A program made the translations under genes and the position numbers. From positions 558,001 through 622,000 of the forward strand of contig NZ_AP025032.1 in assembly GCF_019973775.1 (NCBI RefSeq): a stretch of 64,000 bases of DNA, read 5' to 3'. The number at the start of each line of letters is the position of its first letter. Within the stretch, counting starts at the first letter, position 1. Origin of the DNA: Aureimonas sp. SA4125. GTDB lineage: Bacteria > Pseudomonadota > Alphaproteobacteria > Rhizobiales > Rhizobiaceae. This document shows positions 22,654-50,310 of this stretch, one piece after another. The notes beneath the pieces are model-generated. The model was given only the letters and a program-made list of their open reading frames with translations, had not been told where the DNA came from and ran no database searches.

Positions 22654-23444
22654 AGATCGACCTCTCGGCCAAGACCGCCCTCGTCACCGGCTCCACCGCC
22701 GGCATCGGCTACGCCATCGCGCTCGGCCTCGCCAGAGCCGGCGCCGCCGTCTCCCTCAACGGCCGCGACCTGGGTCGCACGGAGGCCGCCGTCGCGAAGC
22801 TGAAGGGCGAGGCGCCCGGCGCGGACGTCCGCGGCGTCGCCGGCGACGTCGGCACGGCCGAGGGCTGCGAGGCCATCGTCGCTGCGCTGCCGGCGGTGGA
22901 CATCCTCGTCAACAATGCCGGCATCTTCAACCCGCAGGATTTCTTCGACGTCCCCGATGCCGAGTGGGAGCGCTTCTTCGCGGTCAACGTCATGTCGGGC
23001 GTCCGGCTGTCGCGCGCCTATCTCAAGGGCATGCAGGCCAAGGGCTGGGGGAGGGTGCTGTTCCTGTCGTCAGAGTCCGGGCTCAACATTCCCGTCGAGA
23101 TGATCCACTACGGTATGACCAAGACCGCCGACCTCGCGCTGTCCCGCGGCCTTGCCAAGCGCATGGCCGGCACGGGCGTCACGGTGAACGCCATCCTGCC
23201 GGGACCGACGCTGTCGGAGGGCGTCGCCGGGATGCTGGCGGGCGAGGTCGAGAAATCAGGCAAGCCGCTGGAGGAGGTCGCCGCCGACTTCGTCAAGGCG
23301 CACCGCTCGACCTCGATCATCCAGCGTGCCGCGACGGTCGAGGAGGTTGCCAACCTCTGCGTCTACGTCGCCTCACCCCAGGCATCGGCGACGACCGGCG
23401 CGGCGCTCAGGGTCGACGGCGGCGTGGTCGACACCATCGCCTGA
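22650..23444 (+). CDS. Short-chain dehydrogenase/reductase
   Basis: 264 residues. Classical SDR: nucleotide loop TGSTAGIGYAIALGL, NNAGIFN, the catalytic Ser in FLSSESG, and Tyr-x3-Lys in YGMTKTADL, then NAILPGPTLSEGV. It overlaps the hydrolase stop by four bases. Its last 90 bases are related to a decayed SDR tail at 50159-50260, beside the EamA gene. NAD(P)-dependent oxidation or reduction of a hydroxy/keto compound is expected; the substrate is not known. Confidence 0.92.
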   Translation: MKIDLSAKTALVTGSTAGIGYAIALGLARAGAAVSLNGRDLGRTEAAVAKLKGEAPGADVRGVAGDVGTAEGCEAIVAALPAVDILVNNAGIFNPQDFFDVPDAEWERFFAVNVMSGVRLSRAYLKGMQAKGWGRVLFLSSESGLNIPVEMIHYGMTKTADLALSRGLAKRMAGTGVTVNAILPGPTLSEGVAGMLAGEVEKSGKPLEEVAADFVKAHRSTSIIQRAATVEEVANLCVYVASPQASATTGAALRVDGGVVDTIA

Positions 23445-23492
23445 CCCGGATGCGACGGGCCGATCAGGCGGGGCGCACGCGCCGTCCCGCCT
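23340..23492. repeat. Left boundary copy: SDR 3' end plus EamA 3'-end scrap
   Basis: This segment aligns with 50159-50310. It covers the last 35 or so codons of the SDR gene and then, on the minus strand, a scrap that reads AGRRVRPA and stop (about 23464-23492), the same C-terminus as the EamA transporter at 50278. The SDR is whole here and the transporter is reduced to about 30 bases; at the right copy the reverse is true. Confidence 0.65.
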
Positions 23493-23619
23493 GCGATCTC
23501 GCGGCCGATTTCGGCAAAGGACGAAGCGACCGTGGCAAAAAGCCCGTCCGAGACGGCCCCGAGCCCAACGACGGGTCTGGCATCGACCGTTCGCGGCGGC
23601 GTCTCCGTGGGATTGGCCC

Positions 23620-24381
23620 TCAGGGCAGCCTCGATCCGCCGCCGCCAGGACGATCCGGCGGCGACAGGGCCAAAAGCGCGCGGACATCCTCGGGCATAGT
23701 GCCGGGAGCGTCTCGCTTTGGCATGCCGGCGACGAAGGGGGCGAGCTGGGCTGACGCAATGGTGGCAACTCGCCGCAGCTCGGCGACCGGTGCCGCATGG
23801 TCATCGACCCTCAGATCGACACGCCGGTAGTCTTCCGCGCCTTGCACGACGATGCCGGCCGACTGGCGTCCCCGCTTGTCGCCGCCGGCCGCCTGAGCCG
23901 CTTCGAGGGCAAGGAGCAGCCGCTCCTCGAGTGGCGCGTCGAGGCTTTTCGTGAAGGCGCCTGCCATCGCCGCAAGAACCGCCTCGCCCGTCAGCATGTT
24001 GCCTTGAACGGCGTAGTTCTCGCCGAGGATCTGCCCGTGCCACGGCGTGCAGGCCGTGCCGGTGGCGGCTGCGGACCGCCCATGCGCGTCGACCACCCCG
24101 ACCTGCCGCAGATGCGCCTCGGGGTCGTCCGCGAGCGCATCCGCCAGGGCCTGCTCGGCGTCAGCCCCGGATTTCAGTGCGGCGAGGACGGCGACGGCAA
24201 TAGCCGGATTGACCCAGGATTGGGTGGAGACAGCGCCAACGCCCGGCGCGACATAAGGGCAGATTGCCCCCACGGCAGGAACGGCGGAGGCCACCCCGAC
24301 GCCGAGGTCGCCGCTGCGCGCGCAGCGTGCCACGATCGAAAACGTATTGACTTCGACAGACATCGGCACGTCCCGCTTCAT
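23620..24381 (-). CDS. DUF1028 family Ntn-hydrolase-like protein
   Basis: 253 residues from ATG 24381 (overlapping the upstream ATPase gene by four bases), or 247 from ATG 24363. The family signature is clear: NTFSIVARCARSGDLGVGVA, VAPGVGAVSTQSWVNPAIAV, QVGVVDAHGRSAAATGTACT and YAVQGNMLTGEAVLAAM. DUF1028 proteins have an Ntn-hydrolase fold; the activity is not settled, and gene context suggests amide or peptide-like substrates. As last gene of a Liv/Urt-type ABC operon it likely hydrolyses what the transporter imports. The C-terminal 30 residues are low-complexity. Confidence 0.85.
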   Translation of the reverse strand: MKRDVPMSVEVNTFSIVARCARSGDLGVGVASAVPAVGAICPYVAPGVGAVSTQSWVNPAIAVAVLAALKSGADAEQALADALADDPEAHLRQVGVVDAHGRSAAATGTACTPWHGQILGENYAVQGNMLTGEAVLAAMAGAFTKSLDAPLEERLLLALEAAQAAGGDKRGRQSAGIVVQGAEDYRRVDLRVDDHAAPVAELRRVATIASAQLAPFVAGMPKRDAPGTMPEDVRALLALSPPDRPGGGGSRLP

Positions 24382-25133
24382 ATCTGGAGATGCTGGATGA
24401 GGTCGGCAGCGGAGCCTTCGTCGGTCCGTCCGCTCGCCACGATCGCACCGATCTTGAGGATCGCGTAGCGGTCGGCGACGCGCAGGGCGAAGGGCAGGTT
24501 CTGTTCGACAATCAGTATCGACATTGCGTGGCGCTCCTTGGTGCGCTTCAGCACCTCGGCCATCTTCGAAACCATGGTCGGCTGTAGCCCCTCGGAGATT
24601 TCGTCGATCAGCATGATCTTCGGCCGCGCGACGAGGGCGCGCGACAGGAGCAGCATCTTCTGTTCGCCGCCGCTCAACGTTCCCGCGCGCTGCTGGAACC
24701 GCTTGGTGATGACGGGAAACGCCTCCTCGATTTCGGAGACGCGCTCGTCCAGCATGCGGTCGACAGGCACTCCGAGGCGAAGATTGTCCGCGACTGTCAG
24801 ATCCTGAAAGATCGTGAATTCCTGCGGGGTGTGCGAGATCGAGGCGCGTGCGTTGAGATGCGGGGCGCGATTGGTGATGTCTGCGCCTTCGTAGATCACC
24901 TTCCCCGCGCGCGCGCGCACGAAGCCCATGATGGTCCGCAGCAAGGTCGACTTGCCCATGCCGTTCTTGCCCAGCACCGCGACGATCTCCCCGGCATCGA
25001 TCCGGATCGAAACGTCGCGCACCACCATTGCCGCGCCGTAGCCGCTGGTCAGGGCCTCAACGGCAAGTCGCGGCGTCTGGGATGGGGGCGCCGGCGATCT
25101 CGGCCCTGGTGGCATCGCGGCATGGGCGGTCAC
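24378..25133 (-). CDS. livF: ABC transporter ATP-binding protein, LivF/UrtE type
   Basis: 251 residues from a GTG start that overlaps the upstream stop. Walker A GKNGMGKST, Q-loop region TPQEF, signature LSGGEQKMLLL and Walker B IMLIDEISEGLQP, in which the usual DEP reads DEI. This is the second ATPase of a branched-chain-amino-acid/urea/amide-type importer and pairs with the ATPase fused to the permease in the preceding gene. An N-terminal extension of about 22 residues rich in Pro (PPGPRSPAPPSQ) precedes the domain. Confidence 0.9.
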   Translation of the reverse strand: MTAHAAMPPGPRSPAPPSQTPRLAVEALTSGYGAAMVVRDVSIRIDAGEIVAVLGKNGMGKSTLLRTIMGFVRARAGKVIYEGADITNRAPHLNARASISHTPQEFTIFQDLTVADNLRLGVPVDRMLDERVSEIEEAFPVITKRFQQRAGTLSGGEQKMLLLSRALVARPKIMLIDEISEGLQPTMVSKMAEVLKRTKERHAMSILIVEQNLPFALRVADRYAILKIGAIVASGRTDEGSAADLIQHLQI

Positions 25134-49295: not shown

Positions 49296-49381
49296 TATCA
49301 TTGCGCAGAACGTGGCGACGGGATGTTCCAGGCCCGGCCGCGTGGTAGTTCAGATGACCCTCACGCCTAAGGTTCGGACTT

Positions 49382-50083
49382 ATGGATACCGACAGCCCGA
49401 CATTCGCCGCCGACTTGAAGCCTTCGGGGACGATTTCCCGCCAGTCCCTGCACGGCGAGATCGTCAACCGCCTGCGCGACATGATCATCGAGGGCGAGCT
49501 CCTTCCGGGGGCGCGCGTGCATGAGGCGCAGATGGGCACCCAGCTCGGCGTCTCCCGCACGCCCCTGCGCGAGGCGCTGAAGTATCTGGCCAGCGAGGGG
49601 CTGGTGGAGCTGGTGCCGAGCAAGGGTGCAGTGGTCAAGCGCTTCGGCGCCAAGGAAGTCCAGGACATGCTCCTCGTCATCAGGGCGATGGAGGAACTCG
49701 CCGGCGCGCTGGCCTGCCAGAACGGCAGCGACGCCGACATCGCCGAGGTGCGCCGCCTGCACGACGCGATGATGCGCGCCTATGCGCAGGGTGATCGGCT
49801 TGAATATTTCAAGCTGAACCAGAGCATCCATTCGGCCATTGTCGCGGCGTCGAACAATCTGGCGCTGATCAATCTGCACGCGCTGCTGCAGTCCCGGCTG
49901 AAGCGGGTCCGGTTCATCGGCCATGAAGGGCCGGAGAAGTGGGCGGCGGCTGTCGCCGAGCATGAGGACATGATCAGGGCGCTTGAAGCGCGGGACGCGG
50001 TTGCGCTTCCCAGCGTGCTCGGCGCGCATCTCGCCAACGCCTGGTTCCGCGTCAAGGATCAGTGGGATGAGACGCCGACCTAG
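49382..50083 (+). CDS. GntR-family transcriptional regulator, FCD type
   Basis: 233 residues. Winged helix: HGEIVNRLRDMIIEGELLPG, VHEAQMGTQLGVSRTPLREA, GLVELVPSKGAVV. The FCD domain (about 90-225) includes RRLHDAMMRAYAQGD and the metal-site region FKLNQSIHSAI, AVAEHEDMIRALEARD. It diverges from the pdxA-tctCBA-oxidoreductase operon and should respond to the imported carboxylate or a phosphorylated intermediate. Confidence 0.92.
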   Translation: MDTDSPTFAADLKPSGTISRQSLHGEIVNRLRDMIIEGELLPGARVHEAQMGTQLGVSRTPLREALKYLASEGLVELVPSKGAVVKRFGAKEVQDMLLVIRAMEELAGALACQNGSDADIAEVRRLHDAMMRAYAQGDRLEYFKLNQSIHSAIVAASNNLALINLHALLQSRLKRVRFIGHEGPEKWAAAVAEHEDMIRALEARDAVALPSVLGAHLANAWFRVKDQWDETPT

Positions 50084-50158
50084 CCTGCCCGAAACCTCGC
50101 CGACTTCCGCAGCGCCCGGACGAACGGGCGAGGTCGCCAGGACCGGCAAGCCACAGGC

Positions 50159-50310
50159 GGAGGTCCCGAACCTCCGCGCCTCCGTCGCATCAGGGAGGTC
50201 TCCGCCACGACGGGTGCGGCGCTGCGGTTGATGGCGGCGTCGTCGACACCACCGGCTGAGGCGTCGCGTGCGGCGGATCAGGCGGGTCGCACGCGCCGTC
50301 CCGCCGGCAG
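50159..50310. repeat. Right boundary copy: decayed SDR 3' end plus EamA 3' end
   Basis: This aligns with 23340-23492 over about 150 bases. The SDR part (50159-50260) has two single-base deletions that break the frame (NLRASVASG and VDT are still readable in different frames). It is followed by the same 30-base EamA C-terminus, which here belongs to a complete gene. The SDR half differs from the left copy by roughly a quarter of its positions, by eye. Confidence 0.6.

Follow-up and report, generated by a model that had tools for sequence, protein, structure and literature searches.

The stretch of DNA studied here, which we call the window, comprises 64,000 nucleotides of Aureimonas sp. SA4125 (contig NZ_AP025032.1, forward-strand positions 558,001 to 622,000), described in PMC8515883 as an isolate from Antarctic moss that carries a plasmid. 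In this window an SDR gene and an EamA gene, which face each other tail to tail in two related genomes, lie 26.6 kb apart with a block of uptake and breakdown genes between them, and the joint at which the two genes meet is present in two copies. The first copy (J1) consists of the intact SDR gene followed by a 31-base piece of EamA, and the second (J2) of a decayed SDR tail followed by the intact EamA gene. The flanks, the joints and the seams that connect them to the block are as follows (window positions).

19159-23444: left flank, with LysR (minus strand), MFS, SGNH/GDSL hydrolase and SDR genes (all plus strand); 91% DNA identity to Aureimonas glaciei C11:109847-114184
23239-23494, plus strand: J1, comprising the SDR 3' part, a 19-base spacer and the EamA 3' scrap; recurs at J2
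23495-23619: left seam, with no EamA homology and one terminator-like site
50084-50124: right seam, 41 bases from the stop codon of a GntR gene (50081-50083) to the SDR remnant, with no demonstrable SDR homology
50125-50308, plus strand: J2, comprising the decayed SDR 3' tail (50125-50259), an 18-base spacer and as much of the EamA 3' end as is similar to J1
50278-52123: right flank, with EamA (minus strand) and an ArsR-like regulator (plus strand); 88% DNA identity to A. glaciei C11:108028-109999

The intact SDR gene occupies 22650-23444 and ends with a TGA at 23442-23444, which is followed by the 19-base spacer and by the 31 bases (23464-23494) that correspond to the 3' end of EamA, including a stop codon (TCA) at 23464-23466. 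In J2, the stop codon of the SDR remnant lies at 50257-50259 and that of EamA (TCA) at 50278-50280, with 18 bases between them. The original prediction held that the two segments align across the stop codon and the intergenic joint, and this is confirmed here by a local alignment of 23342-23494 with 50159-50308 that scored 122, with 119 of 148 columns identical and 7 gap positions. The remnant could be followed further to the left, up to 50125, where 50125-50165 matched 23239-23279 at 78% and the SDR genes of the relatives at 80-83% across 41-42 bases; to the right of this piece the remnant has a 69-base internal deletion, and it also bears two one-base frameshifts. The J1 segment thus spans 256 bases and that of J2, after the deletions, 184. 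When J2 (50125-50310) was compared with the remaining 400-bp tiles of the window, the top score was 33 (versus 122 for J1), and over the 5.10-Mb genome (5,099,843 bases in two contigs of 4,968,066 and 131,777) it matched only itself and J1 (E 6.1e-23), with no third copy. Since the SDR protein matches 48 places in this genome, a single extra copy of the joint shows that the similarity of J1 and J2 is not a chance resemblance between SDR tails. The J1 query produced one further weak match over the genome (38 bases, E 7e-4).

No EamA homology could be detected to the right of 23494, where 69 to 164 of 300 shuffles were equally good, and the terminator-like site in the left seam is on the minus strand (23556-23544), positioned as if serving the DUF1028-Liv operon with which the block begins. 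At the other end, an extension of the J2 remnant up to the GntR stop codon was rejected: 50084-50124 alone scored no better than shuffles (85, 129, 712, 361, 849 and 704 of 1000 were as good against six targets), and although 50084-50165 as a whole beat all 300 shuffles against SDR, it includes the 50125-50165 match. A conserved terminator hairpin in the 31-base scrap was also dropped, its folding energies being within those of shuffles (z = -1.19, -1.28, -0.97 and 0.30, with the J2 sequence taken from four bases late), and the spacer gave no information on where the crossover took place (lowest shuffle fraction, 0.07). The SDR gene is 795 bases long here and in both relatives, and EamA is matched over residues 1-301; neither gene has lost coding sequence in this genome.

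The relatives with an uninterrupted joint are A. glaciei CGMCC 1.15493 and Aureimonas sp. Leaf427. They belong to a sample of five same-genus genomes, one of which (G002) is merely 65% complete, and they are the two in which EamA was found at 92% or more (A. glaciei, G003, 96%; Leaf427, G005, 92%), the other three giving none, none and one at 24%. In both of these congeners an SDR gene at 90-95% identity directly faces EamA with no block between, the stop codons being 19 bases (A. glaciei) and 26 bases (Leaf427) apart. LysR, MFS, SGNH, SDR, EamA and ArsR are all contiguous in A. glaciei, and a short contig of Leaf427, the end of which lies within SGNH, carries SGNH-SDR-EamA and a partial ArsR. 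The gene-order comparison put forward with the original prediction therefore came out in its favor, and so did the proposal that LysR-MFS-SGNH-SDR and EamA-ArsR were once one locus. When the best 80 of 105 EamA loci were searched by tblastn, an SDR above 38% identity was present in two alone, both adjoining EamA; among the same 80, EamA at 75-93% without SDR was found in further genomes named Aureimonas, Aurantimonas, Rhizobium and others. A gene tree built from nine EamA loci grouped this genome with A. glaciei (support 98). SGNH-SDR and EamA follow A. glaciei against Leaf427 on both sides up to the joint; in the 200-bp tiles beside it, Leaf427-unique sites outnumber glaciei-unique ones by 19 to 5 on the left and by 17 to 8 on the right. 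The exception is a tile within EamA (50864-51063) that is a little more similar to Leaf427 (92.5%) than to A. glaciei (91.0%), possibly through a small gene conversion. A. glaciei also carries further stretches matching ArsR, at 82%, 79% and 74% to the window (L036 107-1608, G003:C12:49940-50956 and G003:C11:215790-216259), of which one has EamA cut near the contig start and two extend into the downstream small open reading frame (ORF); EamA-ArsR may have undergone repeated duplication and rearrangement.

The block between SDR and EamA is not one unit but a patchwork of uptake and breakdown genes, in which four parts can be distinguished.

23620-29230, minus strand: sub-block 1, with DUF1028, LivF, LivM-G, LivH and a binding protein; long matches of 68-74% in several family members
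30067-38430: sub-block 2, with BKACE, a 3HCDH-type dehydrogenase, fused Liv permease/ATPases, LivH and a binding protein (all minus strand), and GntR and SDR (plus strand)
39239-43212, minus strand: segment 3, with an MHYT-PAS-GGDEF-EAL protein and a DUF1993 protein
43559-50083: sub-block 4, or Tct unit, with a DRL/SAF oxidoreductase, TctA, TctB, TctC and PdxA (minus strand), and GntR (plus strand)

Pfam scans covered 29 hand-chosen ORFs of the block; TctB had no Pfam match and takes its name from plasmid annotations. When 23500-43400 was used as a query against 394 genomes of the family, matches at E<=1e-150 were obtained in at least 75 of them, this genome counted (one or two candidate regions were scored per genome, so that these counts are lower bounds). 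The matches were split into pieces with breaks near 29.0, 30.07, 38.4 and 42.6 kb. The leftmost match of sub-block 1 begins at 23620, sub-block 2 showed 80% identity across 8.3 kb in one family member (G327), the proteins of segment 3 had their best matches in different genomes, and the seams at 29235-30065 and 38432-39236 had no plasmid match. The five congeners yielded no match to 23500-43400 at E 1e-150. With 40 candidates scored per genome, they yielded none to 23495-29990 at E 1e-60, and their best match in 30500-43585 was one of 830 bases at 73% within the GGDEF-EAL gene. We take the region at 30067-36839 (BKACE, 3HCDH-type dehydrogenase and Liv transporter) to resemble a carnitine (dehydrocarnitine cleavage) utilisation locus, the substrate being predicted from the families. 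ARAGORN reported a tRNA-Val (CAC) at 37262-37355 on the minus strand, within the GntR gene of sub-block 2; as an integration site it was rejected, being a single call with no Rfam tRNA match at the gathering threshold, and it is probably spurious.

The Tct unit (6.5 kb, at the right end of the block) looks native to the neighborhood and moved, judging from its sequence relationships. Over its full length it is 90% identical to A. glaciei C11:74398-80884, where it lies in the opposite orientation, with ArsR 27 kb away, the joint 29 kb away and a counterpart of window 59108-63989 at a distance of 5.9 kb, so that both the unit and the 59108-63989 region are near the joint in A. glaciei too. There it occurs without the rest of the block, the Liv cluster beside it having been rejected as a counterpart of sub-block 1 (30-33% protein identity). 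These results do not support the original prediction that the Liv/Tct/BKACE block was a single import. Matches to the unit were found in 48 of the 394 family genomes, this one counted, with parts of it at 70-76% in the congener G004, and no second copy at comparable identity appeared among the matches listed for this genome. Third-position divergence from A. glaciei was 0.16-0.24 both for DRL, TctA, TctC, PdxA and GntR of the unit (TctB left out) and for LysR, SGNH, SDR, EamA and ArsR of the flanks (MFS left out). This equality indicates that the unit and the flanks have a common history, or else that the donor of the unit stood at the same distance from A. glaciei. A single inversion, worked by hand, fails to convert the A. 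glaciei order into that of this genome because the orientation of EamA-ArsR is unchanged.

To get insight into the origin of the J2 tail, we compared it with the intact SDR genes. Over 135 columns it was identical to Leaf427 at 112, to A. glaciei at 108 and to the resident SDR at 104. It shared none of the four changes unique to the resident gene, and at the 11 Leaf427-unique sites it carried the Leaf427 base six times, the resident/glaciei base three times and a base of its own twice. In a maximum-likelihood tree of seven SDR genes plus the tail, the latter joined Leaf427 with an ultrafast bootstrap of 83; among 27 additional SDR loci (L044 and L163-L188), 22 did not fit the 795-base frame by a simple cut, and of the five that did, L163 and L164 were used and L179, L185 and L187 omitted as distant. 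On this basis a foreign, Leaf427-like origin of the tail is favored rather than shown. The tail differs from Leaf427 at 3, 9 and 11 sites in codon positions 1, 2 and 3, whereas the intact A. glaciei and Leaf427 genes differ at 0, 2 and 15 over the same 135 columns. Changes on all codon positions are those expected of a non-coding remnant, so that the divergence is mostly decay and, by itself, no proof of a foreign source. The original prediction was thus right that the two SDR halves differ, but this difference alone does not show that an incoming homologue was involved.

Plasmids, too, carry close homologues of the SDR gene, at 90% protein identity in Aureimonas sp. AU20, 83% in Xanthomonas sacchari and 82% in Sphingomonas sp. 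NIC1 (L160-L162). They lie in quite different neighborhoods and, for the last two, near transposases; the gene seems to travel between alpha- and gammaproteobacteria. None of these three plasmids has an EamA annotated beside the SDR gene, and they were discarded as donors of the joint. The placement of the J2 tail as sister of the AU20 gene was rejected by the approximately unbiased (AU) test (p = 0.010).

We propose that the tail-to-tail locus was split when its joint recombined, in one homologous crossover, with DNA that bore a further, partial copy of the joint, an explanation in which our confidence is evenly poised. A RecA-type crossover between the resident joint and this DNA, either a circle or a rearranged chromosome segment, would have duplicated the joint. 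In the incoming DNA a truncated second joint, presumably of a related type similar to that of Leaf427, would have lain close to the GntR end of the Tct unit; this copy would have supplied the SDR half of J2, which decayed later, and the EamA gene to the right of that half would be the resident one. The Tct unit would be native to the neighborhood and relocated, and the Liv/BKACE/GGDEF-EAL part would have come, in that event or in further ones, from a source other than the congeners sampled. A single homologous crossover agrees with a repeat that runs across the ends of both genes and the spacer between them, with the uninterrupted site of the relatives and with the completeness of SDR and EamA. 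A Campbell-type insertion is a single crossover at a homologous stretch, and the present locus resembles it in that direct repeats flank the insert, the locus is intact in relatives and the resident coding DNA is kept. It departs from that model in that the repeat is short (256 bases at J1), one copy is decayed, the insert is partly native to the neighborhood and the donor molecule was not found.

Several observations weigh against this proposal. The AU test did not reject the J2 tail as sister of the resident SDR (p = 0.104), as sister of the A. glaciei lineage (p = 0.158) or below both (p = 0.17). The tail offers 135 comparable columns only and the tree seven SDR genes besides it, and neither the spacers nor the 31-base scrap is long enough to separate resident from incoming DNA. 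No record of a Tct unit adjoining a partial SDR-EamA joint was found in the five congeners or in 72,556 plasmid records, although both collections are sparse for the genus and this negative weighs little; nor is there an SDR remnant beside the Tct unit of A. glaciei. GC content is about 70% in the flanks and 62-68% in the block, but the stretch at 52-58 kb, outside the block, also has 64-65%, which makes the contrast weak evidence. Finally, the EamA tree places two joint-less Aurantimonas species (L063 and L065) between Leaf427 and the group of this genome plus A. glaciei (supports 81-98; 81-82 for their placement), and the joint may have been lost or transferred between lineages in part of the group, which makes it doubtful as a simple clade character.

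The AU result of p = 0.104 counts in favor of a self-duplication, in which repair synthesis or unequal exchange would have copied the resident joint as the block inserted; the J2 tail would then be a decayed resident SDR and no foreign joint would be involved. The amount of change is compatible with this: the tail differs from Leaf427 at 12 of 90 sites in codon positions 1 and 2, about half of the 0.16-0.24 third-position divergence or slightly above, so that decay since roughly the A. glaciei split accounts for most of it. However, the tail has none of the four resident-unique changes and six of the 11 Leaf427-unique states, and the log-likelihood of a resident origin is 5.3 lower; we consider self-duplication unlikely, though deserving of attention. 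The original prediction that recombination involved a related copy of the joint is supported in part: the joint is duplicated and the J2 tail groups with Leaf427, but a resident origin was not rejected by the AU test.

Another possibility is homology-facilitated illegitimate recombination (HFIR), in which a linear molecule with the Tct unit and a second joint at its end would have recombined by homology at the right and illegitimately at 23494, the EamA scrap of J1 being resident. An illegitimate junction of this kind is expected at 3-10 bp of microhomology. This would account for the sharp left seam, with no homology past 23494, and for a chimeric J2, and would not require a donor joint between Tct and DUF1028; the likeness lies in one edge explained by homology and another that is possibly illegitimate. 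According to PMC3240628, HFIR has been reported in Streptococcus pneumoniae, Acinetobacter baylyi, Pseudomonas stutzeri and Escherichia coli, and the insert is generally accompanied by a deletion of about its own size, averaging about 1 kb. In contrast, the target here shows no deletion, with SDR and EamA complete, and the insert is 26.6 kb, which makes this course of events quite unlikely.

We give hardly any credence to a reverse polarity, with the split arrangement older and the block lost in the relatives. Recombination between J1 and J2 as direct repeats would indeed yield the joint of A. glaciei and Leaf427, but two homologous copies of a joint require an earlier intact one, the nearer and the further relative both have it intact, and nothing comparable to sub-blocks 1-3 appeared among the matches listed for the five congeners. 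An old site-specific island that had its attachment site in the SDR 3' end, supplied a replacement for that end and later lost its integrase is, in our view, equally improbable. The precedent is prophage e14 in icd, which leaves a 163-bp icd remnant (PMC6379469), and the arrangement with an intact gene on the near side and a displaced, pseudogenised 3' end on the far side is similar. Unlike in e14, no integrase, recombinase or phage family was found in the 29 scanned ORFs of the block, and the repeat passes the stop codon and the spacer into the end of the facing EamA gene; in addition, ancestry does not change toward the 3' end of the resident SDR gene, and the Tct unit occurs in A. glaciei without the rest of the block.

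Insertion sequences (IS) are frequent in this genome, but the multi-copy IS matches listed lie to the left of window 18000, and none appeared among those listed for 23495-29990 and 30500-50158 (29991-30499 was in neither search). At 184-256 bases the repeat is too long for the target duplication of a transposase, and no sign of an IS-bounded composite element was found in these stretches. A cluster of several IS elements, lying side by side at window 11545-17942, has many 98-100% copies elsewhere in the genome and on the second contig, with inverted ends at 15768-15794 and 16982-17008. Apart from these, a terC RNA element was detected at window 58675-58728 on the plus strand (Rfam RF03067, 56.1 bits versus a gathering score of 39.9).

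It is clear that this locus bears the scar of an ordinary genome rearrangement, a tidy instance of an already known type of event that holds no surprise for the specialist. A more general idea, which we regard as a doubtful speculation, is that tail-to-tail gene joints of Aureimonas might act as reusable docking sites: a truncated joint of a few hundred bases beside a catabolic unit would have allowed the unit to move to an intact joint in the same region, with foreign transport operons gained en route and no dedicated recombinase. What the locus offers is a well-preserved record of accessory catabolic operons being gained with no recognisable mobile element; both edges can still be read and two relatives show the empty site. 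It also illustrates that a block judged foreign by eye may hold a native unit that has merely moved.

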